A DNA stretch of 64,000 nucleotides from Strigamia acuminata (taxonomy: Eukaryota > Arthropoda > Chilopoda > Geophilomorpha > Linotaeniidae): assembly GCA_949358305.1 (NCBI GenBank), contig OX442314.1, positions 63,063,369-63,127,368 on the forward strand, read 5' to 3'. Position numbers and translations under genes: made by a program. The notes below the pieces were generated by a model. It was not told the DNA's origin, ran no database searches, and saw nothing but the letters and a program-made list of their open reading frames with translations. Below are positions 26,301-45,370 of the stretch, one piece after another; within the stretch, counting starts at the first letter, position 1; the number at the start of each line of letters is the position of its first letter.

Positions 26301-27192
26301 AAAAGGCCATAGTTTGCTGAAAAAGGCCATATTTCGCTGAAAAAGGTCACATTTTGCAGGGACTAGTTTAGACGCCTGGGACTTGGCGACGTTTAATGTA
26401 CCATGTGCAGCCCCAAACTTACCCGGCCTGAAACGGCTCCGGTCGGAATATTAATAAATGCCCTGGCATTTATTCGAGGCCTTTCGCTAAATGCGGCTAC
26501 TTTTTGATAAAAAAGGCCATATTTCGCTGAAAAAGGCCATATTTTGCTGAAGAAGGCCATATTTCGCTGAAAAAGGCCATATTTCGCTGTAAAAGGCCAT
26601 ATTTCGCTGAAAAAGGCCATATTTCGCTGAAAAACGCCATATTTCGCTAAAAAACGCCATATTTCGCTGAAAAAGGCCATATTTCGTTGAAAAAAGGCCA
26701 TATTTCGGTAAAAAACGCCATATTTTGCTGAAAGAGGTCACATTTTGCAGGGACTAGTTTAGACGCCGGGGACTTGGCGACGTTTAATGTACAATGTGCA
26801 GCCCCAAACTGACCAGGCCTGAAACGGCTCCGGTCGGAATAATAATAAATGCCCTGGCATTTATTCGAGGCCTTTCGCTAAATGCGGCTACTTTTCGATA
26901 AAAAAGGCCGTATTTCGCTGAAAAAGGCCATATTTTGCTGAAAAAAGCCATATTTCGCTGAAAAAAGGCCATATTTCGGTAAAAAACCCTATATTTTGCT
27001 GAAAAAGGCCATATTTTGCTGAAAAAGGCCATATTTTGCTGAGAAAGGCCATATTTCGCTGAAAAAGGCCATATTTCGCTGGAAAAGGCCATATTTCGCT
27101 AAAAAAGGCCATATTTCGCTGAAAGAGGCTATATTTTGCTGAAAAATGCCATATTTCGCTGAAAAAGGCCACATTTTGCAGGGACTAGTTTA
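23333..27192. repeat. 20-bp satellite with spacers, segment 4
   Basis: Spacer motifs occur near 24351, 24735, 25026, 25548, 25845, 26371 and 26755. Sub-blocks recur elsewhere: 26045-26350 matches 13999-14304, 25114-25510 matches 54815-55210, and 24370-24717 matches 14881-15229 with one altered unit. Nothing but repeats is present. Confidence 0.93.
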
Positions 27193-28108
27193 TAAAGAGC
27201 ATATTCGGACCTGGCATGGACGAAATAAATGTTGACACAGAGTTAACGTGGTGCGGGAAACCGTACACAGCGACCGCCATGTTTATTTCCAGAAACGAGA
27301 GTAAAACAATACAGTGTTCAAGACTATCATGCACTCGACTTAAAAGCAGGACAAATCATTACAATACTTTGATGATTTATCCTTTACAATTAATAGTAAA
27401 AGCACCGACACATATAATCGATAACTAAAACAAAACAACAATACAGGATTTGCTCTTTTGAGCAGACAATTGTTATCAGCGCATGCTACTAAATAGAAAT
27501 GTTCAATCGCGGTACAAAACCAGCATTAATAAAAATCGAGATCGATTGAACACGACATTGAGACATTAACTAGCAGCACATTCATTACACATATCCGGAA
27601 AGTGTGTAATGTAAATATTCGCAAACAACACAATATGGCGACAAACAATCAAACACACAATGTTTCAACCACAACTCAATATATCCCCCTTTGTTTGATT
27701 ATTTGCGCATAACAAACAAGTGCTCGCATAAGTTATTTAACCTGGGCTTTGCCAACCATTTGGTCATCACATCGGCGACATTTAGGGTTCCTGGAATATG
27801 ATTAATGGTCAAAGTATCTCGCTCAAACCAGTCCCTGGGAAAATGAAGCTTTACGTCGATGTGTTTGTTTGCTCGGTTTTCGATACAATTTTTCGCGTAT
27901 TGAATCGCGGGCATACTGTCGGCGTATATGCAGGGGATGTTCCTTTTCGTGCTAAACATAATGTCAGCATCGAAGAGCCTCTCAAGCCATGTAATTTCTC
28001 TTGCGCCGTCGACCACGGCCAGAAATTCACTTTCCATGATCGACAGCGACGTCATGGATTGTTTGTGACAATTCCAAGTAATTGGAACGCCACCTAAATA
28101 AACTATAT
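27193..28108 (-). mobile_element. Copia A, copy 2, left part
   Basis: It is almost identical to 6346-7256: the 3' LTR (27193-27681) and the RNase H end of pol, stopping at 27699. The same GTTTA target duplication precedes it (27188-27192). It is cut at AACTATAT by gypsy F; the rest is at 37109-37955. With F and its duplication subtracted, the copy is 1,759 bp, exactly the length of copy 1. Confidence 0.95.
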
Positions 28109-28610
28109 TGTTACGCGGTAGAGCCGTACCGTGTATCGGCTGGCTCTGCTCGCTCTGTTTAGGCATTTAATACAATGAATTCTCACTAGACGGCGCTGTG
28201 CACCTAATAAGATGCACAGACCGTTCAACTTAGTTGATAGGGGGAATAGGAGTTTACTTAGTGAGTTGATTAAGCCAGAGAGCTCAGATCTCTTTTGAGT
28301 CTCAACCTGTTACCTTCACCTACTACTGCCAGCCGGTTGACGGTCAGGCAGGACTAGGTTTTCTAAACTGAATTGAATTGACAACAGCATCATCCTTATT
28401 TAGTTATTTATTTGATTTGAATGAATGATTTATATTTTAGGTTAATAAATGAACAAATGTAATAAGAGCTGTTGACCGAACATTTACATTAGTAAATGTC
28501 CGACTTTGAATAATAAAGCCAGTAGGCATTTTACATATAAAACCCTGTGTCATTCTTGATCAAATTCATGTCACGTAGGACTAAATCAATCCCCATTTAG
28601 CCACGTAACA
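28109..28610 (+). repeat. Gypsy F 5' LTR
   Basis: 502 bp, TGTTACG to CGTAACA. A polyadenylation-type AATAAA lies near 28510, about 100 bases before the end, followed by ATATAAAACCC. Confidence 0.96.
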
Positions 28611-29153
28611 ACTGGTGGAGATGCGGTCTCGATTGTAGCCCGTTTAGAATTAAAATCCCATTAAAATTGGATTAAAATTGCCAAAATAATTTAATAAAAA
28701 TCTAGAAATAAAAACTTGAAAATTGCTGATTTTATAGCAATTATCTTGAATGACTCAAGTTGGTAAAAACAAGTGAAGTCACAGCTTGAATATTTAATGT
28801 CATTGTGTGAAATAATTTGCATTTTGGAAATAAAAATAGAGTTTAATTGTTTATTAGGGATTAATAAATTGATTTACAATTGTTATATTTAGAATAAATA
28901 AAATATATAGTGTATAAATACTAATTTTGATATTTATTTACAGGAAATTTTGTGAATTTATAGGAATTGAAAAATTGTTTTGAAATGTTATTGATGGATT
29001 ATTTTCTTTGTACTTTTGAGTGTAATATTTATGTATTATATGCTAATAACACTTTAAGTTTTCAGGTAATGAATTCGTGTTAGTGTATTCAGTGTTTAGA
29101 AAGTGAATCAGTGCTAGTGAAAGTGATAAAAAGCGCAATATAAAGGCTTCAGT
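28611..29153 (+). other. Gypsy F primer-binding site and leader, with candidate 5' splice site
   Basis: TGGTGGAGATGC at 28613-28624 matches the complement of the tRNA-Ala 3' end (CCA plus acceptor stem); the following bases match less well. The leader is AT-rich. CAG|GTAATG at 29063-29071 is a good 5' splice donor that could serve a spliced message for ORF3 (inference). Confidence 0.65.
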
Positions 29154-30485
29154 GTGGATAAGCCAGTAAAATTGTCGCAGTTCAATACGGATAATCTTCA
29201 AGATTTGCAAAATTGGGAATTGCCCGAACCGGATTTGAAATTTATCGCTACTAGAAAGAAAAGGAACACTGGATCTGAATCTGACACTGAACTTCAGAAG
29301 GAAGATAAAGAAGTCCGATCTCAACCTCAATCAATCCTACAGAAGTTGGATTTCGCTACTCCGTTAATAAAATTAATTCCACAAAAAGGTTTAGAAGAAA
29401 TAATAAAGACATTTACACCAGTAAAAACTAAACCAGTTCCAATACCAATTGAACCAAATTTTCCAAAAATGACATCATCACAGACTCCAACGGACGTATT
29501 GACCGACTTACTGAAGAGTTTGGTAGTGCAGAAGCGACCTGTTGTCACTTATGATACAGAAAAGGGCAACATCGACCAATGGCTTGTGGCATATGAAGCT
29601 ACAATAGGAACAGATGATGAGAGAGTAAAACATCTAGCATTAGCCTTAAAGACTGATGGATTGGCATGGTTTGTGGAACAACTAAAGAAGAATCCGACAT
29701 GGAAATGGACGGATTGGAAACCACAGATCGAGAAAAAATTTAGAAGAAGCCAAGAAAATGTTTACAATACTCTCCACTTCATGAAACACAAAGAGGGTAC
29801 AGCAGATGCCTTCATGAAGAAAGTCTTGGCCGAATGTGCGTTTATTCTACCAGAAATGACTGAAACTCAGAAAATAAATTATGTTTACCAAGGTTTGAAG
29901 CCTGCAATGCAGAAGATGATGATAACGGTATTTCCATCGACGTTAGAAGAAATGGAACAGAGACTTAAATTGTATGAAAGTCACAAAACAGAAGAACCAG
30001 CGGATCTACTGCTCACAATGTTCAAAAAAGTTGTAGATGAAAAGGTGAACCCTACGACAACAGGTATACTGTCTGGAACAGGGGGATCCCCAGTAAGCTA
30101 CGCCGAGTTATTAGCTGAAAATATTAAATTAAAACAGCAAAAGCTCGTGAGTGAGTCAGTAGAGCCACAACAATTGGTTCCATTATTCATACAAGGCGAG
30201 TGGTATATTCCAGCATCGCAGCGCGGACAGAACTTTAGAGGTAGATACAACAGAGGTAGACAGCGGTCAAATAGCAGTCCGACAACAACGCGTCCATGTG
30301 GATGTTGGCATCGTTATGGTTGTGAACATAACACATCAGTGCCACAGGAGCAACAATCTCAGGAAAATAGAGGGAACCCAAACAATAGAAGGTGGTTTAA
30401 GAAGAAAAGGACACAAGGGGGTGGTAAAACTAACCCTAATCCTAAGCAGAACCCACAACAAGGTCAACAAGAAGAGGAAAACTAG
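29154..30485 (+). CDS. Gypsy F Gag
   Basis: The frame is open from 29130 to the TAG at 30483-30485. The first in-frame ATG is at 29469, and upstream only non-ATG codons such as GTG 29154 are available. Gag therefore either starts at 29469 (338 residues), uses a near-cognate start, or gains an ATG by splicing. The capsid-like region follows that ATG (DTEKGNIDQWLVAYEA, LALKTDGLAWFVEQL, WKWTDWKPQIEKKF, NYVYQGLKPAMQ), a retrotransposon gag fold. There is no CX2CX4HX4C knuckle. Instead the C-terminus has an Arg/Gly stretch (FRGRYNRGRQRS), a small Cys/His cluster (CGCWHRYGCEH) and a basic Gln/Asn-rich tail. It should form the particle and bind genomic RNA through these basic segments. Confidence 0.88.
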   Translation: MDKPVKLSQFNTDNLQDLQNWELPEPDLKFIATRKKRNTGSESDTELQKEDKEVRSQPQSILQKLDFATPLIKLIPQKGLEEIIKTFTPVKTKPVPIPIEPNFPKMTSSQTPTDVLTDLLKSLVVQKRPVVTYDTEKGNIDQWLVAYEATIGTDDERVKHLALALKTDGLAWFVEQLKKNPTWKWTDWKPQIEKKFRRSQENVYNTLHFMKHKEGTADAFMKKVLAECAFILPEMTETQKINYVYQGLKPAMQKMMITVFPSTLEEMEQRLKLYESHKTEEPADLLLTMFKKVVDEKVNPTTTGILSGTGGSPVSYAELLAENIKLKQQKLVSESVEPQQLVPLFIQGEWYIPASQRGQNFRGRYNRGRQRSNSSPTTTRPCGCWHRYGCEHNTSVPQEQQSQENRGNPNNRRWFKKKRTQGGGKTNPNPKQNPQQGQQEEEN

Positions 30486-33400
30486 TGGGTCGGCCACAAA
30501 GAAGATGTCACCATCAACAAGGAAGATGTTGCCATCCAAAGAAGAAAAGAAAAAGTAGAAAAGAAAAGATAATCGTAGTCGAAATGAACATTTCAGAATC
30601 TCTATTGGAAATTCCAGTAATAGTGAACAACATGGAAGTCAAGGCAGTTATGGACACTGGAGGAAAACGCAACGTTATCAGCGAAGAGCTTGCTGAAGCT
30701 TTACAGTTGAAGTACCCGCCAAGCCCAAATATACGATTACAAGGGGTAAGCGGAGAACTTGTGACTCCAATAGGAAAAACCAAGATGAACATTACAATTG
30801 GTGAATTAACATACAGGATCGAGGTCCTGATTGTTAAAGGATTTCATTATGAACTACTGCTAAGTGACCCATTCATGCTGTTCGCGAAGTGCGTATTAGA
30901 CTACGATAAACAAAAAATCTTTGTGGGCCGAACTAGTGGAAAGGAAGTGTCATTTCCAATGAATAAAACTTTTGTTGATCAGAATTATGTTGCGAGGGTA
31001 ATGAAGAACATCACAATTCCACCAATGCATGAGTGCATTGTTCCCATCTATTTGAATAAAGCAATAACATTGGACATGTTTGTACAACCATTACATAATG
31101 TCACTGATAGATTTGCTGTGATAGGTTGTAAAACTTTAACAGATTTCAAGAACGGAAAAGGCATCATTCGAGTGGCTAACCCAACCAAGAAGACAGTCTT
31201 TCTGAAGGAGAAGTCAGCAATCGCAAAAGCTTATTATGTGGTTGATGTTGGGGTGTTTGACGAAAAACAGGTACACTGTTTTGACTTTGACTCCTCAATA
31301 GCAAAAGACAAAATGAATAAAGACCAACAAGAGCAAATGCGACAACTTCTTCAAAAGAATCAAGACAGATTTGCTGTTTCTGACAAGGATTTGGGAAGAG
31401 TTCAAGTGTATAAGCATAAAATCGATACTGGAGACCATGAACCAATACATTTGCAACCGTATCGTCGTTCTATGAAGGAAAAAGAAGTCGAAGCTGAGGA
31501 AACAAAGAAATTGCTTGATATGGGAGTGATAAGGGAATCAGAAAGTCCCTGGAGCGCGCCTGTATTGCTAATAAAGAAAAGAGATGGTAAGTGGAGATTT
31601 TGCGTCGACTGGAGACGTTTGAATGCGATAACAAAGAAAATGGTGTACCCATTGCCAAGAATAGATGACACTTTAGATCAGCTGGCAGGTGCACAATTCT
31701 TCTCCATGATGGATCTTATTCAAGGATATTATCAAGTCGAAATAGATGAACAAGATCGCGAAAAAACAGCATTTACCACTTCAAGCGGACATTTTGAGTT
31801 TAACGTCCTAGGAATGGGATTATGCAATAGTCCAGCGGCTTTTCAAAAGTTAATGAATAAAGTTTTAGGCAACCTCCTAGGCAAAGTTTGTATAGCGTAC
31901 ATTGATGACCTTATCATTTTCTCTAAAACATTCGATCAGCATTTGAAAGATCTAGACAACGTTTTCGACAAGCTTAGACAATCTAACTTAAAGGTGAAGT
32001 TGAGCAAGTGCACATTTGGGACGAACACCATCAAGTATTTGGGACATGTCGTGGACTCTGAGGGTATATCACCAGACCCTAGGAATCTGGAATCCGTAGC
32101 TAAGTTTCCAGTTCCTACTAACCTCAAACTTCTTCGAGGATTCATAGGGCTCTGTTCGTATTACAGGAAGTTCATTCCAAGTTTTGCGGACATATCCAAG
32201 CCCTTAGTCAATTTGACGAAGAAGGACGAGAAATTTGATTGGGGCCCACCTCATGATAAGGCCTTCAAAACATTGAGGACCGCCCTTATCACCGTGCCAG
32301 TGCTTGCGCACCCTAATTTTGAAGAACCCTTCATGGTATCGACAGACGCGAGCGCATATGGTCTTGGAGCAGTGTTGAAACAGAAGATAAACAAACAAGA
32401 ACATGTGATAGCTTATGCCAGCAGACTTCTCAGCCAAGCAGAACAGAATTACACAGCCACGGAAAGGGAATGTCTGGCTATTCTGTTTGGAATTGAAAAG
32501 TACCGACCTTATCTGTATGGTAAGAAGTTCCAGATAATTACAGACCATTCGGCACTTCAATGGCTAAAATCAGTCAAAAACCCCAATGGCAGACTAGCTA
32601 GATGGAGCCTACAGCTAGTAGACTTTGATTTCGATGTGATCTACAAGAGCGGAAAAGCGCACAAAGATGCCGACGCCTTGAGTAGAATTCCAGAAGATTT
32701 AAGCGAGGAAGAAAACAAAATAGTTCCCTCACTTTTACTCGAACAGCTCGACCTTCCTGCTGAGCAGCGTAAGGACAAGAAGCTACTGGAATTGATCACC
32801 GCAATGAATCAAGTAGAGCAACTTCCGAAGAAGAGAAGACGTCCTCTAAAGCAGTTCGTCCTTCTCGATAACGTGTTGTTTAGGAAGAAAAATTCTCTGA
32901 ATTCCCTAGACACGGAAGTAAATCTGTTATACGTTCCACAGCATTTGAAAACGGCCGTTCTTGAAGAAATGCATGATGGACTGACGGGTGCTCACTTGGG
33001 CCTAAACAAAACATGGAAGAGAATGAGAACAAGATTCTTCTGGCCCCGGATATATAAAGACGTTAGAAATTACGTACTTTCTTGTCCACATTGCGCGAGC
33101 TCGAAATCAATGACGACAGCGCCAAAAGGTTTAATGCAGCCGTGGTCTACGATATCTAAGCCTTTCGAGAGGATTGGAATCGACACACTGGGAAGTTTTC
33201 CGACCTCCGACAAGGGCAACAAGTATGTTTTCGTAATGACAGATTATTTGTCGCGGACAGTGATTGCTAGAGCAGCTCCAGCATCAACAGCGTTGGAAGC
33301 AGCTAGAACTCTGCTTTATGAGTTAATGTTGAAGGAAGGCAGTCCGAGAGAAATCCTGAGCGATAGAGGCACAGAATACAGAAACAAAATGGTGGAAGAA

Positions 33401-34429
33401 GTATCAAATATGTTTAAAGCCCTACACAAAACCACTTCAGGGTACCATCCAAGGACCAATGGCCTCACAGAAAGATTCAATGCGACGTTTGCAAAAATGT
33501 TGCAGATTTATGTTGATAAGGACCAGAGGGACTGGGATGATTTTTTGCCATTTTTGCTTTTCTCGTATAATACCGGTGTGCACGAGACGACGGGATATAC
33601 ACCTTATTATCTTTTGAAAGGATATGAAGTTGATTTGAACGTGGACGTAAACCTCAACTTACCTCAAAAAGAATTTACCTTGCGAACCTCAAAATTCATC
33701 AGAGAAGCTAGGAAAATAGCAAATGAAAGGTTGGAATGGCAAGGAGAAAAAAGCAGAAAAAGATTCGATCAAGGCCGAGTTCATGTGGAATTTGACCCAG
33801 GAGAATTAGTATATCTCAAAACACCCAATAGAAAAGTTGGGTTAAGTGAAAAACTCCTGCCACAATTCTCAGGCCCATACGAAATAGTAAGAAGAACCGC
33901 GCCAAATGACTACGAAATTAGAAGTTCAAATGGAAAGAAAACAGATATTGTTAATATTGAACGATTAAAACCGTATAAACCCAGAGAAGAAATTCCAGCG
34001 GAGATATTAGAAGAATTGACAGCTAAAAAAGTCACATTTGCTGATGAAACTGCAACACAAAGTGAAAAACAACAAGAAATTGAAGAAAACACGTCAATTT
34101 CGCCAATTCCGATCGCTAAAGAACGATTTATTAGCGATGACGATCAAATTTCGTTAAAAACACTCTTTGAACCTGAAGAAAATACAACAAAAGTGTCAAA
34201 TTTCCCAATTCCAAGTGAAAAAGAGCGATTAAAAGCGCTCTATGGACCGAAAGAAATTATGGAAAGATGGCAAAACGAAGACGAACGGAAAAACAAAGAA
34301 AATCAATTGCAAAAACCGCCGACAGGTGTCGTTGACGCAGTCGATGACGCGTCGCCGCCTGAAATCGAGAGTTTCCGGTCACGTCGCCTTCGCAAACAGG
34401 CTCGTCGTGACTACAGTGGATTGTGTTAA
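30446..34429 (+). CDS. pol: Gypsy F Pol: protease, reverse transcriptase, RNase H, integrase
   Basis: This frame is -1 relative to gag and open from 30446, overlapping the gag end by 40 bases. It has no early ATG, so expression as a Gag-Pol fusion is likely. Counting from 30485, the aspartic protease Asp-Thr-Gly starts at D57 and reverse transcriptase YIDD is at 472-475. RNase H begins at STDASAYGLGAVL, with TERECLAI and TDHSALQWL. The integrase HHCC finger (HDGLTGAHLGLN, CPHC) precedes catalytic D900, D960 and E996 with a 35-residue gap. A GPY/F-type C-terminal domain (LPQFSGPYEIV) follows, then a hydrophilic tail of about 180 residues with no chromodomain. All catalytic residues are present and there are no stops. 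Confidence 0.96.
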   Translation, partial: AEPTTRSTRRGKLVGRPQRRCHHQQGRCCHPKKKRKSRKEKIIVVEMNISESLLEIPVIVNNMEVKAVMDTGGKRNVISEELAEALQLKYPPSPNIRLQGVSGELVTPIGKTKMNITIGELTYRIEVLIVKGFHYELLLSDPFMLFAKCVLDYDKQKIFVGRTSGKEVSFPMNKTFVDQNYVARVMKNITIPPMHECIVPIYLNKAITLDMFVQPLHNVTDRFAVIGCKTLTDFKNGKGIIRVANPTKKTVFLKEKSAIAKAYYVVDVGVFDEKQVHCFDFDSSIAKDKMNKDQQEQMRQLLQKNQDRFAVSDKDLGRVQVYKHKIDTGDHEPIHLQPYRRSMKEKEVEAEETKKLLDMGVIRESESPWSAPVLLIKKRDGKWRFCVDWRRLNAITKKMVYPLPRIDDTLDQLAGAQFFSMMDLIQGYYQVEIDEQDREKTAFTTSSGHFEFNVLGMGLCNSPAAFQKLMNKVLGNLLGKVCIAYIDDLIIFSKTFDQHLKDLDNVFDKLRQSNLKVKLSKCTFGTNTIKYLGHVVDSEGISPDPRNLESVAKFPVPTNLKLLRGFIGLCSYYRKFIPSFADISKPLVNLTKKDEKFDWGPPHDKAFKTLRTALITVPVLAHPNFEEPFMVSTDASAYGLGAVLKQKINKQEHVIAYASRLLSQAEQNYTATERECLAILFGIEKYRPYLYGKKFQIITDHSALQWLKSVKNPNGRLARWSLQLVDFDFDVIYKSGKAHKDADALSRIPEDLSEEENKIVPSLLLEQLDLPAEQRKDKKLLELITAMNQVEQLPKKRRRPLKQFVLLDNVLFRKKNSLNSLDTEVNLLYVPQHLKTAVLEEMHDGLTGAHLGLNKTWKRMRTRFFWPRIYKDVRNYVLSCPHCASSKSMTTAPKGLMQPWSTISKPFERIGIDTLGSFPTSDKGNKYVFVMTDYLSRTVIARAAPASTALEAARTLLYELMLKEGSPREILSDRGTEYRNKMVEEVSNMFKALHKTTSGYHPRTNGLTERFNATFAKMLQIYVDKDQRDWDDFLPFLLFSYNTGVHETTGYTPYYLLKGYEVDLNVDVNLNLPQKEFTLRTSKFIREARKIANERLEWQGEKSRKRFDQGRVHVEFDPGELVYLKTPNRKVGLSEKLLPQFSGPYEIVRRTAPNDYEIRSSNGKKTDIVNIERLKPYKPREEIPAEILEELTAKKVTFADETATQSEKQQEIEENTSISPIPIAKERFISDDDQISLKTLFEPEENTTKVSNFPIPSEKERLKALYGPKEIMERWQNEDERKNKENQLQKPPTGVVDAVDDASPPEIESFRSRRLRKQARRDYSGLC

Positions 34430-34822
34430 GGTTTTCTGAGACGAACCGGGTTTACTGTGTGACTCAAAGAAACCTAAAGCATTAATAACAGCAGCAGTTG
34501 ATTTGTGTGTGATTCCGTAAGTGAAGAGAGTGAAATTTAGAACGAATTTGGCGAGCAAATAGCTTAAAAACGAAACGAATAACATCGCGAAATGGAAATT
34601 TAGGCTTAAATAATTGTGTTAAAACTTCAAAATGAAATTTTAGTGTGTGCATACATTATCAAGTGACTAATTAGTTAAAAAATTGTTAAATTTAGTGTAA
34701 ATTAGTGCAACATGAAATTTTAAATGAAATAACGAATGGAAATTGAAAAAATTTTTGTGAAAATTTTGAATTAATGAAGTAATTGATTTTATTTTTTTTT
34801 CAAACAATATATTAGGATCCGA
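34430..34822 (+). other. Pol-ORF3 spacer with candidate 3' splice site
   Basis: An AT-rich, noncoding interval of 393 bases. Its last part has a ten-base T run (34791-34800), then CAAACAATATATTAG|G with the AG at 34814-34815, eight bases before the ORF3 ATG. This is a textbook 3' splice site and fits expression of ORF3 from a spliced subgenomic RNA, as for env in retroviruses and errantiviruses. The splice itself is inferred. Confidence 0.6.
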
Positions 34823-36196
34823 ATGGACGAAATGGCAAGCAAATTTGATCGGATGGATGTGCGTAGTGACAGTGACAGCGATGCGGATTCGGTTTGCTCG
34901 ATGCAAGTGGGCGATCTTTTGGAACGTCAACTTAAGAAAGGCGATGACTTGGAAATTTATTTAGCAAATAAGCCGAGCACAAGTAAAACTTTGGACGAAT
35001 TGGTTAACTGCCCACGCCCGTTTACTGAAGGAAAGCGGAAGGCGGAGGAAGATAAAAAGAAATATGCAGGACCATTAACAAAGGGTGAAGAAGGCTTATT
35101 GCGTCGTCGTCGTAAGAATCGACAATTGAAACGAGATAAGAAAGCACAAAAGAAGAAAGTGTTTGACGAGCAATCGAAAAGGATCCGGGAAGAAGAAATG
35201 CGTCACACCGTTGATCGAAACAAACGCCGATTAGATGATTTGCGAATGGAGCACCGTAATATGGTCAACGCCATTAGAGCCAGGAAATTAAAAGGAGTGA
35301 TGGGATTGCCCGACTACCAGTTGCTGAGAACAGGGGCGAATGCTTTGCTGATCCAGGAGGCGAAGATAAGAAAAAATATTTTAAAAGCCATCGCCCTAGC
35401 GAGAAGAGAGTCCTTCCAGGACCCTAGTGTAGTGTTTCCCACTCCTATACGGGTATACCGTGTGGAGTTGGACGCTGCACGACAGGTCCAGGCTCTCGGA
35501 CTTGCATTAGACTATAGTAATGCGCCAAAATATGACTTAGCATTCGACGCCGTAGGTTGTCCGCCGATTAAAGTCATGAACTATCAGATGGCAGCATTAG
35601 GCGACCTAACGCCGGGACGACAGAGCTGGACGTATGACAGCGTCGTTGATCATTACCTCCAACTGTTAGAAGAGCGATATCCCATATTGGCACCAATTCA
35701 ATCTGAGTGGGTCTTCAAAATGGTGGACCCAGCTAAACGAAAGGAAGCGATCTATTGGCTAATGAAGAGACTTCCAAGTGCTCAAAAGAAGATTTGGGTG
35801 TTTCCAGTTCCTATTGAAGAGCATTGGCAGCTTTTCATAGTGGATTGGCGGAAAAAGCCAACCCAATACGTGCTTTATGACCCAAGCGGACCAATAGAGC
35901 GCACATATCCAAAGTGGGAATCTTTAAGATACTCGTTGATGGATGCAGGAGTAAAGTTTCCAAACAAATTCATACGTTGGGACCCGCCACGTATGCACCA
36001 ATTGGATAATGACAGCTGTGGCCCAACCATACTCTACTTCGTTAGAAGATACGTTGAAGACCGGGACTTAATGCAGTTTGGGGAGCCGTGTGAGTTACGC
36101 TTACGATTTGTGTATGAGATTGCAAATCGTGAAATTCTCCCATTCGAGTTGATCAAAGAAGAGGATAAGAAGGATCAAGCGGAAGGAGGAGAGTGA
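34823..36196 (+). CDS. Gypsy F ORF3: Ulp1/SENP-like (C48) cysteine protease
   Basis: 457 residues from an ATG at 34823. Residues 1-70 are acidic and Ser/Asp-rich. Residues 90-160 are very basic and probably coiled-coil (RRRRKNRQLKRDKKAQKKK at 94-112), a possible nuclear signal. Residues 265-440 fit the C48 fold. H334 lies in EEHWQLFIVDW, D353 in LYDPSG, Q393 and C399 in HQLDNDSCGPT; the Gln-Cys spacing of six equals that of SENP/Ulp1 enzymes. Known members cleave SUMO or related ubiquitin-like proteins, or act as adenovirus-type maturation proteases. Either could apply here: deSUMOylation of host or element proteins, or Gag processing. There is no transmembrane or signal sequence, so it is not an envelope protein. 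Frame and catalytic residues are intact in a recent copy, which implies selection. Confidence 0.88.
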   Translation: MDEMASKFDRMDVRSDSDSDADSVCSMQVGDLLERQLKKGDDLEIYLANKPSTSKTLDELVNCPRPFTEGKRKAEEDKKKYAGPLTKGEEGLLRRRRKNRQLKRDKKAQKKKVFDEQSKRIREEEMRHTVDRNKRRLDDLRMEHRNMVNAIRARKLKGVMGLPDYQLLRTGANALLIQEAKIRKNILKAIALARRESFQDPSVVFPTPIRVYRVELDAARQVQALGLALDYSNAPKYDLAFDAVGCPPIKVMNYQMAALGDLTPGRQSWTYDSVVDHYLQLLEERYPILAPIQSEWVFKMVDPAKRKEAIYWLMKRLPSAQKKIWVFPVPIEEHWQLFIVDWRKKPTQYVLYDPSGPIERTYPKWESLRYSLMDAGVKFPNKFIRWDPPRMHQLDNDSCGPTILYFVRRYVEDRDLMQFGEPCELRLRFVYEIANREILPFELIKEEDKKDQAEGGE

Positions 36197-36606
36197 AGTG
36201 AACTTTAACTTCTTTAAGTGAATAAGTGTAAAATCAACACGAACTTTGAACATTTTTTTTTGTGTGTGTGTTTTTTTTTTATTTTATAGAAAATTGAAAA
36301 CTGAAAAAAAAGTAATATAAAACAAAAAACCAAAAAGTGTTATCATTGATGAAAAGTGTTAATTTTATTTAATTTTAAACTTTGAATATTATTTCCAATG
36401 TAAAAGTGTAATAAAAAGTGACTATGACATTTATAAACATTGAAAAGTGAGTTATATGATATTTTTGTAAAAATAAGGATGATGAAAAGAGATTCTCAAA
36501 ATTGTAAAATTGAGTTTATGATTTGAATTTTTTAATGTGAAAGGAGATGCGTTAGTTAGAACAATTCATTGTTTTTCGAGAGACCGAAAAAATTAAAGGG
36601 GGGGGC
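36197..36606 (+). other. Gypsy F 3' untranslated region and polypurine tract
   Basis: AT-rich noncoding sequence with a T/GT-rich run at about 36245-36282. The polypurine tract AAAGGGGGGGG at 36595-36605 is one base from the 3' LTR. No further ORF. Confidence 0.85.
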
Positions 36607-37108
36607 TGTTACGCGGTAGAGCCGTACCGTGTATCGGCTGGCTCTGCTCGCTCTGTTTAGGCATTTAATACAATGAATTCTCACTAGACGGCGCTGTGCA
36701 CCTAATAAGATGCACAGACCGTTCAACTTAGTTGATAGGGGGAATAGGAGTTTACTTAGTGAGTTGATTAAGCCAGAGAGCTCAGATCTCTTTTGAGTCT
36801 CAACCTGTTACCTTCACCTACTACTGCCAGCCGGTTGACGGTCAGGCAGGACTAGGTTTTCTAAACTGAATTGAATTGACAACAGCATCATCCTTATTTA
36901 GTTATTTATTTGATTTGAATGAATGATTTATATTTTAGGTTAATAAATGAACAAATGTAATAAGAGCTGTTGACCGAACATTTACATTAGTAAATGTCCG
37001 ACTTTGAATAATAAAGCCAGTAGGCATTTTACATATAAAACCCTGTGTCATTCTTGATCAAATTCATGTCACGTAGGACTAAATCAATCCCCATTTAGCC
37101 ACGTAACA
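36607..37108 (+). repeat. Gypsy F 3' LTR
   Basis: 502 bp, no difference from 28109-28610 seen by eye; followed by the ATAT duplication and the rest of copia A copy 2. Confidence 0.96.
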
Positions 37109-37955
37109 ATATGGTCCCCAAAGCTTCGCCTCTTATCCAAATCTAACGCAAACGACGCGTCGGTATAAACAGTCAGATTATCATTTCTACAATTAGAAAG
37201 ATTGATCACATAATCTGACGTGTTTGCTAGATATCGCAAAATCTGCAGTAACATTCGAATGTGACGCGTCGAGTGTTTCTCATTGTATTGTGAGAGGACA
37301 ATGACCGAGAACAAGATGTCCGGTCTTGTCCTACTCGCTAAGAACAATAGACTTCCCACTAAGTTGCGATAGTAGAAAGTGGAATCAACCCGCTCTTTTT
37401 CCGTCACGCCCTGAATAATCGTTCCTAGCGTCCCAGGCACTTTAATCCGAAGACATGAGTCGACCCCATACAACTTACAGAGTTTGTCTATATATGCCCT
37501 CTGATGGATCCTAATTTGGCCCCCAGACCTGTCAAAGGCTATGCCCAACAAAAGAGTCACGGGACCCAAATCAACTGTGTCAAATGATTCTCTTATCCAA
37601 CCAACGACACATTCCTCGACATAGTCATCTTTGGAAAAGAGAACTATGTCATCCACGTAAAAGATGATGATAGCGTCGTTGTCTAATGCATAAACACAGT
37701 TAAGACCCAACAAAGGCACAAATCCCAGTTGGAGTAGACGGTCGTGGAGGACTTGATACCACATTCGTCCACTCTGATGCAGCCCATACAATGACTTTAA
37801 CAGCATCCAACACTTGTGTTGGTTTTTGGCTGTTCTGTAGCCCTTGGGAATCTCCATGAACTGGACCTTATCAAGGTGTGTAATGTAAATATTCGCAAAC
37901 AACACAATATGGCGCCAAACAATCAAACACACAATATTTCCACCACAACTTAATA
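37109..37955 (-). mobile_element. Copia A, copy 2, right part
   Basis: This resumes exactly where 28108 left off (after the duplicated ATAT). It carries the reverse transcriptase part of pol with FYVDD, the same deletion junction to the 80-bp 5' LTR remnant, and GTTTA at 37956-37960. Compared with copy 1 there are isolated substitutions, for example GGCGCCAAAC in place of GGCGACAAAC near 37911. The RNase H and reverse transcriptase halves of the frame are now 9 kb apart, so this copy is doubly broken. Confidence 0.95.
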
Positions 37956-38336
37956 GTTTAGACGCCGGGGACATGGCGACGTTTAATGTATCATGTGTAG
38001 CCCCAAACTGACCCGACCTGAAACGGCTCCGGTCGGAATATTAATAAATGCCCTGGCATTTATTCGAGGCCTTTCGCTAAATGCGGCTACTTTTCGATAA
38101 AAAAAGCCATATTTTGCTGAAAAAGGCCATATTTCGCTGAAAAAGGCCATATTTCGCTGAAAAAGGCCATATTTCGCGGAAAAAAGGCCATATTTCGGTA
38201 AAAAACGCCATATTTCGCTGAAAAAGGCCATATTTTGCTGAAAAAAGGCCATATGTCGCTGAAAAAGACCATATTTCGTTGAAAATGCCATATTTTGCTG
38301 AAAAAAGGCCATATTTTGCTGAAAAAGGCCATATTT
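37956..38336. repeat. 20-bp satellite with spacer, segment 5
   Basis: A 381-base copy of 8105-8485 with a single difference noticed by eye (CGAGG against GGAGG after the palindrome). Confidence 0.94.
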
Positions 38337-40028
38337 TGTTGATACACCTGGGAATTAGCCACGACCATTTGAACATTGAAACATAAATATCGCTCATTTA
38401 ATCATCCATTTTTATACAGTTAGTGTTGTCTGTGACAACCGCGCTCACACAATAAAGGTCTCTTGCCTTTTAATCAAAACAATCAATCAATTATTTAACT
38501 TAGTGTTTAAATCCACTCACAATCTCCCCTTTGATTTTAACACTCAAAAAACCAACTCAAATAAACTATCCGTAAATTCAAACATACAACATCAATATCA
38601 TAAACAATTATTCAACTTGTCTTTGAAGAATGTTCATCCCTCGCAAACATTTATCAATGTTCGGCTTGCTGAGCGGTTTTGTTAAAACGTCCGCCCACAT
38701 CTCCACTCCTGGTACGTGTACAACTTGTATCTTGTCCACCTCGACTTTGGACTTGATTAGATGGTACTTTCGGTTAAGATATTTCGTCCGAACTCTTTGC
38801 ACACCATCCTGCAACATCTGGACTGCCGCTTCGTTGTCATTGTAGAGTGTCATCTCCTTGTTGATCGGTGCTCGCAAATCTCCATAAATCCCTTTCACCC
38901 AACTCAGTTCCTTGACCGCGTCGGCCACCGCATCTAGCTCGCTCTCGCAAGAAGACTCCGCCACGTTGCCTTGCTTCTTGCAACGCCAACTTAACAATGA
39001 TTCCCCGTTCTTCACAACGTATCCCGTGAATGAACGTGCGTTTTGCGTTGAGTTCCAACTCGCGTCAGCGTAGGAGTGTAGATGGTATTCCCCTTTCGTG
39101 TACTTCAATTTGTAATCTAGTGTCCCTCGAATGTATCTTAGTACTCGCTTTGCTGCAGCCATGTGAATTTCCCTCGGGTCCTTGTTAAATCGGGAAAGTG
39201 AGCTTACCGCAAAGCTTAGGTCTGGCCTGGTACTGGTTGCCAAGTACATAATACTCCCAATAACTTCTTGATACAGTTTCTGGTCAACTGGCTTGCTGTC
39301 TTCAAACTCCTCCAACTTAAGTCCCAATTCCATCGGTGTAGCAACTGAATTGCATTTATCCAGTCCGAAACGTTTCAAAATTTTCTCTGCGTATTTTCGT
39401 TGAAATAGATAAATCTCTCCATCTTTTTGACTGACTTCCAAACCCAAAACGTAAGTAAGTTTGCCCATTGACACCAATTCCACAAATTTGTTCAAGTCTT
39501 TGATCTTTTCATCTCGAACTTTGGCGTTTGAACTTGCCGTTACAAGATCGTCTACGTAAACTGCTACGTACATTGTTCCATCGTCGCTTCTGTATTGGTA
39601 AAGACACGGATCATCTGCCATTCTTTTAAAACCGCAAGCTGTTAAAACTTCATGTAGTCTCTCGTTCCAACAACGTCCTGCTTGCTTTAACCCGTAAATA
39701 CTTCTTAAAAGTCTACAAACAAATTCGATCCCTGCTTCTTCAAATCCTTCCGGTTGTTCCATAAATATTCTCTCCTTTAACTTGCCGTGCAAGTATGCTG
39801 TCTTCACGTCGTGCAAATCCAACAAAAGATCCTCCTTTGCTGCTAAGTCCAGTAAGATCCTCAGTGATTCAATTCGCACCACTGGTGAAAATGTCTGGTC
39901 GTAATCGGTTCCTGGCTTTTGGCTACAACCAACAGCCACCAAACGTGCTTTGTATCGATTAAGACTCTCATCCGGATTTTCTTTGATTCTAAACACCCAT
40001 TTAGACTTCACCGGTTTTACATCATTTG
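38337..40028 (-). mobile_element. Copia B, copy 2, left part (3' LTR and reverse transcriptase/RNase H)
   Basis: A 185-bp 3' LTR (38337-38521) and pol from the stop at 38608 up to residue about 960, cut by copia C with target ATTTG (40024-40028). YVDD and RNase H motifs are intact. One transition is visible against copy 1 (GAGCTTACC against GAGCTCACC near 39200). The frame reads a few codons into the C LTR, but the interrupted gene cannot make a full polyprotein. The N-terminal part is at 47054-49778. Confidence 0.95.
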
Positions 40029-40505
40029 TAAAGCGATTTCCTGGCCAAAACATCGGTTAGAAAGGAGTTGACGAGTGTCTAAACAGGTGCGCGACACCGA
40101 CATGCGTGCGCCATGTTTAATATCACATAAAAGTGTACACGCTTCGAGGCTAACAACTGCACTCGGAAAAATAGGATAAATCATTGTTGGATTTCAATGA
40201 TTTGTCCTTTACATTATAAAATAAAAGCAATGACATTCATAATCGATAACTAAGCAATAATAACAATACAGGACTCGCTCTTTTGAGCAGACGATGTTAT
40301 CAGCGCATGCTGCTAAATGGAAACGTTCAACCGCGGTACAGAACCAGCATTAATAAAAATCGAGATCGATTGAACGCGACATCGAGACATTAAATAGCAG
40401 CACATTCATTACACATATCCGGAAAGTGTGTAATGTAAATATTCACAAACTATACAATATGGCGACAAACAACCAAACACACAATATTTCCACCACAACT
40501 CAATA
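40029..40505 (-). repeat. Copia C 3' LTR
   Basis: 477 bp, plus strand TAAAGCG to CTCAATA. On the element strand the polypurine tract AACAAAGGGGGA lies at about 40508-40519. Confidence 0.93.
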
Positions 40506-40522
40506 TATCCCCCTTTGTTTGG

Positions 40523-43500
40523 TTATTTGCGCCTTACAAATAAATGCTCACACAAGGTGTTAAGTCTGGGCTTGGGTAACCATTTGGTCATCACATCGGC
40601 GACATTCAGGGCCCCTGGAATATGCTTAATAGCAAACGTTCCGCGCTCAAACCAGTCCCTGAGGAAATGAAGCTTTACGTCGATATGTTTATTCGCCCTA
40701 TTCTCTATTCGGTTTTTGGCGTATTGTATCGCGGGCATACTGTCCGCGTACACGCATGGGGTGTTCCGATTGATGCTGAACATGATGTCGGCATCGTAAA
40801 GCCTCTCTAGCCATATAATCTCCTTTACGCCATCGACCACGGCCAGAAATTCACTCTCCATGATCGATAACGCAGTCATTGACTGCTTATGGCAGTTCCA
40901 CATGATCGGAACGCCACCCAAATAGACTATGTGACCCCCGAAGCTTCTCCTTTTGTCTGCATCGAGGGCAAACGACGCGTCGGTATACACAGTTAGATTA
41001 TCATTTCGGCAATTGGAAAGATTAATCATATAATCCGACGTATTTGCCAGATATCGCAAAATTTGCAATAACATACTAATGTGACGCGTCGAATGTTTCT
41101 CATTGTATTGTGAGAGGACAATGACCGAGAACAGGATGTCTGGCCTTGTCCTGCTCGCCAAGAACAAGAGACTTCCCACTAAGTTGCGATAGGGGAAAGT
41201 GGAATCAACCCGCTCCTTTTCCGTCACGCCCTGAATAATCGTTCCTGGCGTCCCAGGTACTCTAATCCGAAGGCATGAGTCGACCCCATACAACTTACAA
41301 AGTTTTTCTATGTATGCCCTTTGATGGATCCTAATTTGGCCCCCAGACCTATCAAAGGCTATGCCTAACAAGAGGGTCACGGGACCCAAATCAACCGTGT
41401 CAAAGGATTCCCTAATCCATCGAACAACGCATTCCTCGACGTAGTCATCCTTGGAGAAGAGAACTATGTCGTCCACGTAAAAGATAAGAATTGCGTCGTT
41501 GTCTAACGCATAAACACAGTTAAGACCCAACAAGGGCACAAATCCCAGTTGGAGTAGACGGTCGTGGAGGGCTTGGTACCACATCCGTCCACTCTGATGT
41601 AGTCCATATAATGACTTCAACAGCATCCAACACTTATGTTGGTTTTCGGCTGTTCTGTAGCCCTTGGGAATCTCCATGAATTGGACCTTATCAAGGTCCC
41701 CGTACAAGTACGCGGCCTTGATGTCAAGGTGGACATCTCTCCAACCTTTCAGTATCACCAAGGTACAGAAAAACACTATAACGAGGACGAAATTGACTAC
41801 GGGGGAAAATACCTCCGTAAAGTCAATGCCCGGCCTCTGTTTGAAGCCTTGTGCTACCAAGCGAGCCCGGTAGCGCGCGACTGCACCCGACTGGTCCCTT
41901 TTCATTTTATAAATCCATTTTGATCCCAAAAGCAACTCTCCTTCGGGCTTATCAATTTCTTTATAGACAGTTCGATCGTCGAAGATATCTGTCTCTTCTT
42001 TCATCGCCTTTTCCCAGTCCCGTTTGTTGGTGTGCCTCATTGCCTCCTCGTAGGTATCAGGCTCTACGGCACAGAAACCGGCAAAAGGGAGTTCGGGTTC
42101 TTCACCCTCTAAGGTTTTGAAGTCAAAAAGATCTGGGTCGTAGTGGTAACCCTCTGCGTCGCACCATCGCGCAACGTCAGTCCGACTTCTAAGTTTGTCT
42201 TCATTGGGCGAGAAATAAACCACATCAATTTTCCCAGCCGTTGCCCCGGCTTTCCGGACAGACTGGACCCGTCTCCACTTAGTCATATCCAGCGGCAGCG
42301 ACAAAGGATCTTTGACCTTCTTTCCCTTTTTGCCCGAACCACGACGAGCTTGTATCGTAGGAGGAAGATCAACCTCCTCATCGTCGTCAGGATAAACATT
42401 GAAGTAATTCTCGCCATCGCCGTTATCCCCCTTCGCCCCACCAATTTCTTCAACTGGATTATCCCCAGCACCAGCATCCCCAACCAAGTCACCTTCAACA
42501 GTTTCTATCGCAGGCTGTTGTATCGCTTGTTTTACAAGCGGCCTCAATTCAGGTCTGAAAACAGGCTTTGGGGTTGTGGGTAAAGGAGGCTTCTCCTTCG
42601 GAACCGGGGGTTCAACAGGGGGCGGAATAGGAGGTGGTAGTGCCTCTTGCACTTCCTCAACAATTTCAGGGATAGGGGCAACGGAATCATCATCATCTCC
42701 CTCGGTGTCCGAGGAAGAATCCCCAAAATGTTTCAATTGGCCACCCTGCGGTTGCTTGATGGGCTGTTGTAGCCGTTTGCCAATCTCATACCAATATGAG
42801 TCTTCGAAAATTCGGACATGTTTGGACGCAAAAACTTGGTTCCGTACAGGATCCCAAACCCTGTAGCCCCTAGTTGATATTGCGTATCCAATGAGTGCTC
42901 CCGCCCAAGCCCTTCCTTCCAGTTTGCCCTTTCTGACCTGGGACGGGATATGTACAAATGTCTTCGACCCAATACACCTGATGTGTCGCAAAGACAATTT
43001 CTTGCCGAAAAACACGGTATAGGGCACTTTTCCTCCAAGCCCTTCATGGGGGAATCGGTTCTTTAAGTAAACTATGGTCGTCGCTAATTCAGCCCAAAGG
43101 GGATAGGGGAAATCATTTTCCAACATTAAAGCTCTGACGCCACCGACAATGGTACGGTTTGCACGTTCTGCAACAGAATTCATTTCCGGGCTATATGTAT
43201 TCGTACGAATACATTTCAAACCAATTTTGGATGCATAATCATCCCAATTCCGCGAAATAAATTCTCCTCCATTATCAGTTTTAATGCATTTCACTTTCCG
43301 TGATGTCGTTCTTTCGACTTCCGTCAACCAACGTTTAAAATGGCCCAAAACTTCCCCTTTGGTCTTCATCGTTATGATCCACATATAACGTGAATAATCA
43401 TCAACCAATATAAAGTAAAAATTAGCCCCACCCAAGGAAGTAGCTTGTGATGCCCCCCAAACATCCATGTGCACTAAATCTAATACTCCCTTAGTGGAAA

Positions 43501-45370
43501 TGGTAATTATCGGGGGAAAACTCGCCCTAGTGCTCTTAGCACGGGCACATGCGTCACAAGTGGATAATTCTTTGTTAGACAAATTGATCCCAAAAACGTC
43601 CTCGGATTCGGTTAATTTAATAATGCCTTTAGCATTATGGTGGCCCATTCTGGAATGCCACGTGTCCATACTCTGGGATATTTCTTTCTTTCTCATTTTG
43701 ATCCCAGTATCCCCGCTTTTGTTAACTTTCGCAGTCGCATTAGCTTCGGGAACAATAGCAGGAGGTGTCTGAACCTCATTCACTGTTTTCTGTAAATTAA
43801 TCGCCGCAGGCGCATTCGCTTTGGTTGGCTCGCTTACTTGCGTACTCAAATTAGATGCGGATTTTCCCATATCCGGCTTACAGAAACTTTTTAGTAAAGC
43901 TGACTTAAAATCTAAAATGGTTAGTAGCGGTTGTACAAATTTTTCATCCTTCACGGATGATTTGATTAAATCGAGGACAGCAGCTGTATCCTGTTGCGCA
44001 GTTAATGCAGCTGTGTTTACAGAATTAACCTCGACCCGGCAGTTGACTTTGTACAGCCTGTCGCTAGTCCGAACTGCCGAAATCAATGGTTCCTCGATTT
44101 TATCTTTGAAAATACTCATCTTCCCATCTTTAACAATTGTGCACAACCCAGCCTCATCGGTGCGCCCGAGCGAAATAAGGTTTTTCCGAAAATTCGGTGC
44201 GAAGAATACATTCGTCAAAGTTATTTTCCTCGTTCTTTGTCCATAGAGCGAAGTGAGGACGATGTTGCCCACACCTTCAATCTTCGATTTTCCTTCTCCT
44301 TGTAGAACGCTGAAGTTAGACAACGGTTTGAAGTTTGAAAACCAATTCCGGTTGAAGGAAAAGTGGTCGGTCGCTCCCGTGTCCACGTACCACTGTGAAT
44401 CGTAGTTTCCGTGCGACACAAGAGATAAGGGCACTGTGGGCTTCTCTTCCGACACCGCAGAATACAAAGTGTAGGGCTCATCTGTATAGGGGTCCAGTTG
44501 TGTGAGATTTGCTCTCTGTGGACCCCTTCTGCCTCGTCCTTTGCCACGGGTGCCTCCACGATTCAATTGGGCTGGCGAGCCAGCGCTGGCGGGGAAAGTC
44601 CCTTGCTGTTTCGGCGGCGATGGGCACTCCCTGGCGAAGTGTCCCGACCCACCGCAAGTAAAACATGTTCCACGCGAAGTTCCGGGGGAATTTGGGGTTT
44701 TTCCACGAGGTTTCCATTTCCCTTTAGTATAGAAAGCGGTAGTATTGTCTGCCAATACAGGTGGGACGCCAAATTCATTGGTCTGTTCATAAAGGCGATT
44801 GTACTCGCCAAGTAAACGTTCTTTAACGTTTTTCGCTGTGAATTCCGTATCCGACCAGTGATACGCGGTCTGTTTCACAGCCTCGTATTGTGGGGGCAGA
44901 AGATCTAAATATTGGAATGCCTGGAATTCATCGGTGACCTCAATTTTAACGTCCTTCAGTTCGACGATTTTGCGGTCGACCCGCCCGGTGAAAACTAGCA
45001 TTTCCTCATTATCTCGAAGTTTCATGTTGAGGAATTCACGTCGCAACCGAGCACGACGTGCCCTCGTCGTCGGTTGATAAGCGTCCTTTAGGGCTTCCCA
45101 AACTTTCGCAGCGGTGGGGCAGGCAACAGCTATCACTTGCTGCGGCTCAGCGCAACTCATGCAGATAGTGGACATTGCCTTGTCCTCTCGAGCGTTAAAC
45201 TCTCGCTTCTCTTTTGCAGTGGCTGTTGCAGCCAGTGGTGGCTCAGAGCCACTAACATGTCCCCAAACGCCGTTGTATTTGAGCAATAACTGGACCTGCA
45301 CGGACCAGGTGGCATAGTTCGTGCCATCGAGCTTTTTAATATCCTTGTAATCGTCGTGCTTTGAAGCCAT
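40523..45370 (-). CDS. Copia C Gag-Pol polyprotein
   Basis: The likely start is the ATG at 45370 (MASKHDDYKD), giving 1,615 residues; the frame is open for a few codons upstream. The N-terminus KLDGTNYATWSVQVQLLL is the typical copia gag opening. The zinc knuckle is C236, C239, H244 and C249. Protease has Asp-Thr-Gly at 330-332. The integrase finger is H571, H576, C604 and C607, with catalytic D635, D698 and E734 (35-residue gap). A long Pro- and acid-rich linker lies at about 850-1010 (polyproline PPPIPPP, several Asp/Glu runs). Reverse transcriptase YVDD is at 1298-1301, with copia RNase H to the end. It is longer than copia B mainly through the protease-integrase spacer and the linker. No lesions are seen. 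Confidence 0.96.
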   Translation of the reverse strand: MASKHDDYKDIKKLDGTNYATWSVQVQLLLKYNGVWGHVSGSEPPLAATATAKEKREFNAREDKAMSTICMSCAEPQQVIAVACPTAAKVWEALKDAYQPTTRARRARLRREFLNMKLRDNEEMLVFTGRVDRKIVELKDVKIEVTDEFQAFQYLDLLPPQYEAVKQTAYHWSDTEFTAKNVKERLLGEYNRLYEQTNEFGVPPVLADNTTAFYTKGKWKPRGKTPNSPGTSRGTCFTCGGSGHFARECPSPPKQQGTFPASAGSPAQLNRGGTRGKGRGRRGPQRANLTQLDPYTDEPYTLYSAVSEEKPTVPLSLVSHGNYDSQWYVDTGATDHFSFNRNWFSNFKPLSNFSVLQGEGKSKIEGVGNIVLTSLYGQRTRKITLTNVFFAPNFRKNLISLGRTDEAGLCTIVKDGKMSIFKDKIEEPLISAVRTSDRLYKVNCRVEVNSVNTAALTAQQDTAAVLDLIKSSVKDEKFVQPLLTILDFKSALLKSFCKPDMGKSASNLSTQVSEPTKANAPAAINLQKTVNEVQTPPAIVPEANATAKVNKSGDTGIKMRKKEISQSMDTWHSRMGHHNAKGIIKLTESEDVFGINLSNKELSTCDACARAKSTRASFPPIITISTKGVLDLVHMDVWGASQATSLGGANFYFILVDDYSRYMWIITMKTKGEVLGHFKRWLTEVERTTSRKVKCIKTDNGGEFISRNWDDYASKIGLKCIRTNTYSPEMNSVAERANRTIVGGVRALMLENDFPYPLWAELATTIVYLKNRFPHEGLGGKVPYTVFFGKKLSLRHIRCIGSKTFVHIPSQVRKGKLEGRAWAGALIGYAISTRGYRVWDPVRNQVFASKHVRIFEDSYWYEIGKRLQQPIKQPQGGQLKHFGDSSSDTEGDDDDSVAPIPEIVEEVQEALPPPIPPPVEPPVPKEKPPLPTTPKPVFRPELRPLVKQAIQQPAIETVEGDLVGDAGAGDNPVEEIGGAKGDNGDGENYFNVYPDDDEEVDLPPTIQARRGSGKKGKKVKDPLSLPLDMTKWRRVQSVRKAGATAGKIDVVYFSPNEDKLRSRTDVARWCDAEGYHYDPDLFDFKTLEGEEPELPFAGFCAVEPDTYEEAMRHTNKRDWEKAMKEETDIFDDRTVYKEIDKPEGELLLGSKWIYKMKRDQSGAVARYRARLVAQGFKQRPGIDFTEVFSPVVNFVLVIVFFCTLVILKGWRDVHLDIKAAYLYGDLDKVQFMEIPKGYRTAENQHKCWMLLKSLYGLHQSGRMWYQALHDRLLQLGFVPLLGLNCVYALDNDAILIFYVDDIVLFSKDDYVEECVVRWIRESFDTVDLGPVTLLLGIAFDRSGGQIRIHQRAYIEKLCKLYGVDSCLRIRVPGTPGTIIQGVTEKERVDSTFPYRNLVGSLLFLASRTRPDILFSVIVLSQYNEKHSTRHISMLLQILRYLANTSDYMINLSNCRNDNLTVYTDASFALDADKRRSFGGHIVYLGGVPIMWNCHKQSMTALSIMESEFLAVVDGVKEIIWLERLYDADIMFSINRNTPCVYADSMPAIQYAKNRIENRANKHIDVKLHFLRDWFERGTFAIKHIPGALNVADVMTKWLPKPRLNTLCEHLFVRRK

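Follow-up and report, generated by a model that had tools for sequence, protein, structure and literature searches.

A Ty3/gypsy Element with a Third Gene

The analyzed window, a stretch of 64,000 nucleotides from the genome of the centipede Strigamia acuminata, contains a Ty3/gypsy retrotransposon at positions 28109 to 37108 that carries, between pol and the 3′ long terminal repeat (LTR), a third open reading frame (ORF3; 34823..36196, plus strand). This frame starts with an ATG and encodes a protein of 457 amino acids, which is predicted to be a cysteine protease of the Ulp1/SENP type (family C48) preceded by a charged helical N-terminal region. The two LTRs (28109..28610 and 36607..37108, both on the plus strand, with TGTTAC...GTAACA ends) are identical, as originally predicted: they form an exact match of 503 bases, the final base of which is already flanking sequence in both places, leaving 502 bp for each LTR. 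The predicted target-site duplication was confirmed as well. The element is flanked by two copies of ATAT (28105..28108 and 37109..37112) and sits in the ORF of a copia element; joining 40 bases from either flank restores an 80-base empty site that is identical to an intact copia copy at positions 7222 to 7301 of the window.

The TG...CA ends, the target-site duplication, and the gag-pol order, with protease, reverse transcriptase, RNase H, and integrase following each other in pol, are those of the Ty3/gypsy group, albeit with a weak match in gag. The pol ORF (30485..34429, plus strand) encodes a retroviral-type aspartic protease with the DTG motif (30611..30838, plus strand; PF13650, E = 1.1e-8, pol residues 43 to 118), a reverse transcriptase (RVT_1, E = 1e-36), an RNase H (RT_RNaseH, E = 1.2e-38), and an integrase (Integrase_H2C2, E = 2.4e-21; rve, E = 1.2e-9). 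The original prediction listed both gag and pol as intact. The gag frame (29154..30485, plus strand) is open but has a GTG, not an ATG, at its listed start (the first in-frame ATG is at 29469), and its match to Ty3_capsid (PF19259; E = 7.6e-4, 19.4 bits) is below the Pfam cut-off of 29.1 bits.

ORF3 begins 393 bases after the stop codon of pol, and 410 bases separate its end from the 3′ LTR. A weak candidate 3′ splice site, an AG after a pyrimidine tract (34814..34815, plus strand), lies 7 nucleotides upstream of its ATG; of 14 selected upstream regions, 9 have a similar acceptor-like AG, against 4.1 expected from shuffled sequences, which supports it weakly. A polypurine-rich tract, recognized by eye, precedes the 3′ LTR (36587..36605, plus strand), and a TGG-starting stretch 2 bases past the end of the 5′ LTR is a candidate primer binding site. 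The element has LTRs, reverse transcriptase, and RNase H, unlike the Mutator and Ginger transposons with their transposases and terminal inverted repeats and no reverse transcriptase; no inverted repeats of 60 bases or more were found in the region from 24000 to 44000 (shorter ones were not sought). The presence of LTRs and integrase likewise sets it apart from the NeSL and Utopia elements, which have a restriction-like endonuclease and no LTRs.

The ORF3 Protein

Residues 1 to 207 of the ORF3 protein (34823..35443, plus strand) comprise an acidic start, modeled with low confidence, followed by long charged helices, as judged from the secondary structure and the predicted local distance difference test (pLDDT) values; no known family was identified in this region. 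The predicted C48 catalytic domain occupies residues 212 to 439 (35456..36139, plus strand). His334 (codon at 35822..35824), Asp353 (35879..35881), Gln393 (35999..36001), and Cys399 (36017..36019), all encoded on the plus strand, align with His533, Asp550, Gln597, and Cys603 of SENP1, so the third frame inside the LTRs does have these four residues in the proposed C48 arrangement; Gln393 presumably takes the oxyanion-hole position. The His-Asp-Gln-Cys order is invariant in all 18 rows of one alignment of ORF3 members (A1). In another (A2), Asp, Gln, and Cys are found in 16 of 16 sequences and His in 14, with Ser in the other two. Both tunnel tryptophans of SENP1 are kept.

A phmmer search with the ORF3 domain of the window alone matched C48 proteases at E = 9.1e-5, and a profile built from ORF3 sequences matched SENP1 at E = 1.2e-11. 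The Pfam profile PF02902, which had been suggested as a check, gave a mixed result: it matched 11 of 18 ORF3 members at E ≤ 0.1 (best, 1.2e-4), but scored 14.0 to 14.7 bits with the domain from the window alone, below the cut-off of 20.7, and gave no match at E ≤ 1 with the whole protein. Because this match stays below the curated cut-off, the C48 assignment rests on the profile searches, the motif, and the fold. The fold was modeled with AlphaFold2 on 16 sequences; a single-sequence model, with pLDDT mostly 20 to 45 in the protease half, was not used. The predicted structure has the C48 fold and, among the 50 matches listed (adenain not among them), is closer to cellular deSUMOylases than to viral maturation proteases, with about 17 to 21% sequence identity to SENP1 and SENP2 in the fold alignments. 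Profile and structure searches thus both led to C48 proteases, in agreement with the Ulp1/SENP-type identity proposed originally.

ORF3 as a Part of the Element

Searches of the genome of the window (237,517,015 bp) revealed at least 94 matches to ORF3 (best 93 of 505 candidates, with a few places giving two matches). These include 41 full-length ones at ≥91% identity, 37 of them without stops (counted by hand); among the matches listed, 80 of 94 are stop-free. The remaining ones are mostly 34 to 47% identical to ORF3 of the window, with a few at 61 to 77%. A distant ORF3 member used as the query gave at least 103 matches and recovered further lineages. A piece of pol lies upstream on the same strand in 27 of 28 loci (L001 to L028), L025 being the only one without it, although only a C-terminal piece is left in L019 and L020, only the segment preceding the integrase in L028, and fragments in L013. 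In all of the loci L001 to L008, a 3′ LTR is found downstream of ORF3.

An LTR piece from a second lineage, used as the query, gave at least 40 matches (best 40 of 138 candidates), which form 19 same-strand neighbor pairs. All five pairs spaced 8.45 to 8.99 kb apart have ORF3 inside, while the nine pairs spaced 7.30 to 7.84 kb apart contain no listed ORF3. The five pairs more than 13 kb apart, two of which hold ORF3, are probably nested or mispaired. ORF3 is therefore a component of the element in several lineages and not a single-copy capture. A chance open frame is rejected by the number of genomic matches together with the substitution ratios given below, and a host gene caught in one copy is rejected by the five ORF3-bracketing LTR pairs; the one-copy capture without purifying selection that had been named as the alternative does not apply.

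No relatives were confirmed in a set of 5.8 billion proteins (some searches covered the best 7998 candidates by shared words) or in viral contigs scanned with ORF3 and pol. Eukaryotes may be scarce in the protein set, and the lack of confirmed relatives there is no evidence that ORF3 is limited to this genome. A cluster of six ORF3-related fragments, three of them identically scored and about 31 to 32 kb apart, was noticed at C1:47990089-48098941; it is either a segmental duplication or a local array.

Selection on ORF3

Ratios of nonsynonymous to synonymous substitution rates (dN/dS) were calculated by the pairwise NG86 method for 30 copies picked for an open ORF3 of at least 445 codons, leaving out pairs with fewer than 6 differences. 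The choice of open copies biases these values towards constraint, and pairs share history and are not independent tests. The ratios for ORF3 were 0.00 to 0.13 in family A, 0.04 to 0.10 in family B, 0.06 in family F (one pair), and 0.10 to 0.16 in family G, so that purifying selection, proposed as a test of the original idea, was found in four lineages. In group CD, L017-L018 gave 0.09, and L013-L015 gave 0.39 on 12 differences, with 1.41 on 6 differences in the N-terminal part; in the other pairs, synonymous sites were saturated or nearly so. The integrases of the same elements showed ratios of about 0.00 to 0.08 where measurable. ORF3 is constrained, though generally less than the integrase.

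Loss of ORF3 and Spread of ORF3-less Copies

A search for the integrase gave at least 125 matches in the genome (best 125 of 5378 candidates), which were compared with 125 ORF3 positions pooled from two ORF3 searches, making the counts of ORF3 presence lower bounds. ORF3 is found 0.5 to 2.8 kb downstream of at least 63 of these 125 integrases: at least 42 of 50 in the family of the window and at least 21 of 75 in the others. Four of the 54 matches outside the family without a listed ORF3 were inspected (L060 to L063), and ORF3 is deleted in all four. Counted from its ATG, the breakpoints are at about −192/+1221, −104/+1236, +5/+1242, and −107/+1317, respectively. Measured against L027, which itself carries an internal deletion, the first pair would end at +1116. 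In three of the four loci, a C-terminal remnant of ORF3 is still recognizable by tblastn. As the four junctions differ, there have been at least three, probably four, deletion events.

Some of these junctions recur. The pattern of the L060 junction was found at 12 places (11 exact and one with a mismatch) and that of L062 at 7 exact places, plus one with 2 mismatches, while that of L063 was found at a single place; reversed patterns, used as controls, had no matches in the genome. Nine of the 12 L060-type junctions lie behind a listed integrase, 8 of these in open pol frames of at least 1309 codons, and so do 6 of 7 L062-type junctions, 3 of them with frames of 1360 (both assessed by eye). The recurrence of the junctions, often beside an open pol, means that ORF3-less copies moved after the loss. 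Since they multiplied, the element does not require ORF3 in cis, and the gene either works in trans or can be dispensed with under certain conditions.

Exchange of the ORF3 Cassette

ORF3 and pol differ in their histories. The integrases of L022 and L024 are 98% identical (dS, 0.38), while their ORF3s are 63% identical with saturated synonymous sites; similarly, L014 and L015 show an integrase dS of 0.15 and saturation in ORF3. DNA identity between L022 and L024 drops from about 90% in pol to about 40 to 67% over ORF3, with a single window back at 93% near +1850. Trees built from 22 loci for pol and for ORF3 agree in 7 splits, and some of the conflicting splits have support above 0.9, such as L014 plus L015 in the pol tree (0.94) and L022 plus L023 in the ORF3 tree (0.99). 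In the listed pairs that span two main lineages, ORF3s are 33 to 42% identical where the integrases are 77 to 86% identical. The ORF3 cassette is mosaic, for which recombination between elements is the simplest reading.

Possible Functions of ORF3

The original prediction offered two roles for the protease, processing of the element's own proteins and interference with host SUMO-dependent silencing. The Ulp1/SENP-type identity, the membership in the element, and the purifying selection have stood up. Interference with host SUMO appears to be the better of the two roles. The chances are about even that ORF3 is an accessory Ty3/gypsy gene for a diffusible, trans-acting protease that cleaves SUMO or SUMO conjugates and thereby weakens SUMO-dependent silencing. 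The protein made by ORF3-bearing copies would be used by ORF3-less ones as well; its substrate would be SUMO or a SUMO-conjugated host protein, and the removal of SUMO would relax the transcriptional silencing imposed on the elements. An enzyme of the SENP kind that diffuses and benefits all related copies would explain both the constraint on ORF3 in its carriers and the success of the copies lacking it. The fuller version, in which this gypsy clade encodes a diffusible, exchangeable SUMO-deconjugating enzyme that lifts silencing in trans, and the genome harbors producers along with ORF3-deleted cheaters with open pol that depend on the enzyme of the producers, is tentative and on balance doubtful. 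As to the silencing machinery, PMC8131101 reports that Argonaute-directed silencing in worms requires SUMOylation of HDA-1 and recounts that Piwi in flies interacts with the SUMO E3 ligase Su(var)2-10. The yeast Nup84 complex keeps Ty1 transcription in check by tethering Ulp1 (PMC8585004).

Several observations speak against the anti-silencing role. In yeast, Ty1 rises upon loss of Ulp1 tethering, not upon an increase in Ulp1, so the direction of the effect of a SUMO protease is not simple. Asp272, which aligns with Asp468 of SENP1, is not conserved in all ORF3 lineages; a preference for SUMO is therefore uncertain, and the substrate may be a different ubiquitin-like protein. In L050 and L051, a full-length open ORF3 has Ser at the catalytic His position, and with a dN/dS of 0.88 on 29 differences, this pair apparently represents an inactive lineage with relaxed constraint. 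The search for host SUMO gave 23 matches to PF11976, 11 of them in two regularly spaced arrays resembling polyubiquitin; of three sequences inspected, two proved ubiquitin-like and the third (L068) presumably encodes a Rad60/NFATC2IP-type domain, and no SUMO gene was pinned down. The spread of ORF3-less copies also fits plain dispensability, and the enzymatic activity of ORF3, its expression, and its effect on silencing are all predicted.

Other roles can be envisaged for such a protease. It is possible, but unlikely, that it acts on the Gag or integrase of the element itself, stripping off SUMO, ubiquitin, or a related modifier and so keeping these proteins from being degraded or aiding nuclear entry and integration, rather than countering silencing. 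The same fold and tunnel residues would serve this role, and Ulp1 domains have been suggested to act in transposition or later DNA repair in Ginger and Mutator elements (PMC2836005). Nothing separates it from anti-silencing; both are compatible with deleted copies that persist after losing ORF3 in cis. Processing of Gag, Pol, or a self-encoded Gly-Gly site in particle maturation, for which the maturation proteases adenain and pS273R of African swine fever virus serve as the model, is rather improbable, because pol carries its own aspartic protease, the fold is nearer to cellular deSUMOylases than to the listed viral maturation proteases, and ORF3-deleted copies have multiplied.

Errantiviruses, which have the same order of gag, pol, third ORF, and LTR, can lose or exchange the third ORF, as seen here. 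ORF3 might accordingly be regarded as an env-like cargo gene, useful under some conditions in spread or in the particle and lost when unneeded, with an incidental protease fold. The location between pol and the 3′ LTR, divergence faster than in the integrase, cassette exchange, and repeated loss all agree with this view; it is nevertheless very improbable, as the kept catalytic residues and tunnel tryptophans suggest selection on enzymatic activity, and no env family was found among the Pfam matches of ORF3 (no transmembrane predictor was applied). The third ORF of errantiviruses encodes an envelope protein, whereas here it appears to encode a C48 protease.

Compared to SENP1, SENP2, and Ulp1, ORF3 is distinguished by its own helical N-terminal region, its carriage by an LTR retrotransposon, and the unfixed equivalent of Asp468. 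It shares the combination of retrotransposon and Ulp1-like protease with the non-LTR elements NeSL and Utopia of nematodes (PMC4640811). Their protease is N-terminal on the reverse transcriptase protein, unlike ORF3, which is separate, follows pol, and belongs to an LTR element with an integrase. Ulp1 domains also occur in Mutator and Ginger1 DNA transposons (PMC2836005), likewise cases of a mobile C48 domain. In those, it is fused to the transposase. VANC proteins of the VANDAL elements of Arabidopsis are reportedly sequence-specific anti-silencing proteins; they provide a precedent for anti-silencing encoded by a transposable element, although not by a protease of an LTR element. The open-license PMC literature, mostly at the level of titles and starts of abstracts, yielded no LTR retrotransposon with a C48 gene, and no animal LTR element is known to us whose genes include one directed against SUMO-dependent silencing. 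ORF3 would add one more route of Ulp1-type domains into mobile DNA to those through Mutator, Ginger, and NeSL/Utopia. A conserved SENP-like gene in a gypsy clade, with naturally occurring catalytic-loss and ORF3-deleted copies as controls, would make the conflict between transposable elements and SUMO silencing directly testable, and, if the proposal is true, would constitute a cheater-and-producer system among LTR elements.

Other C48 and Ubiquitin-Like Genes in the Genome

A repeated ORF of 1075 codons with a C48 domain was found at six listed places (L034 to L039). Of these, L034 alone was compared with Pfam; its C48 match (E = 1.1e-12) passes the PF02902 cut-off, which ORF3 of the window does not, and its matches to PHD and the Mutator transposase are weak and below cut-off. 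Two further loci, L041 (C1:22252003) and L042 (C1:33635212), have open frames of 1828 codons with a C48 domain, which in L041 matches at E = 2.1e-11, with no other Pfam match in the portion examined.

The origin of ORF3 was addressed by searching six-frame translations of 20 C48 loci (L029 to L048), a small search space, with the ORF3 profile. Matches were weak: L030 was the best (E = 1.4e-6), followed by L042 (2.4e-6) and L041 (2.6e-6), and none of the Mutator-like loci L034 to L039 was listed at E ≤ 10. The host SENP1-like gene (L029), split between frames as if by introns, gave E = 2.4.

Single ubiquitin-unit ORFs were noticed at C3:1901100-1901460 and C13:1385600-1385960; these units have presumably diverged from ordinary ubiquitin. 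The two lie on different contigs yet have flanking sequence in common, as parts of a mobile element would. Further candidates of this kind are at C5:11213750 and C5:11682418.

Other Features of the Window

A copia polyprotein of 1623 codons (40523-45394, minus strand) contains a methyl-CpG-binding domain (PF01429, E = 1.8e-10) at about 42113-42280, between the integrase and the reverse transcriptase; to our knowledge, such a domain is unusual for a copia element. An ORF at 370-1299 on the minus strand has an N terminus resembling that of a secreted protein (by eye) and continues into a piece of a gypsy integrase; by tblastn, positions 756-1 match the integrase of the ORF3-bearing element at 82.5%. 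In the host genome, the end of a contig consists of (TTAGG)n repeats, which we take to be an arthropod-type telomere. At about 23777-27092, the window has tandemly repeated units with a period of about 20 bases; they are satellite-like and not a gene. There and at about 50794-55719, the minus strand has open frames that reach about 220 codons and contain a repeated peptide; these are likewise satellite-like.
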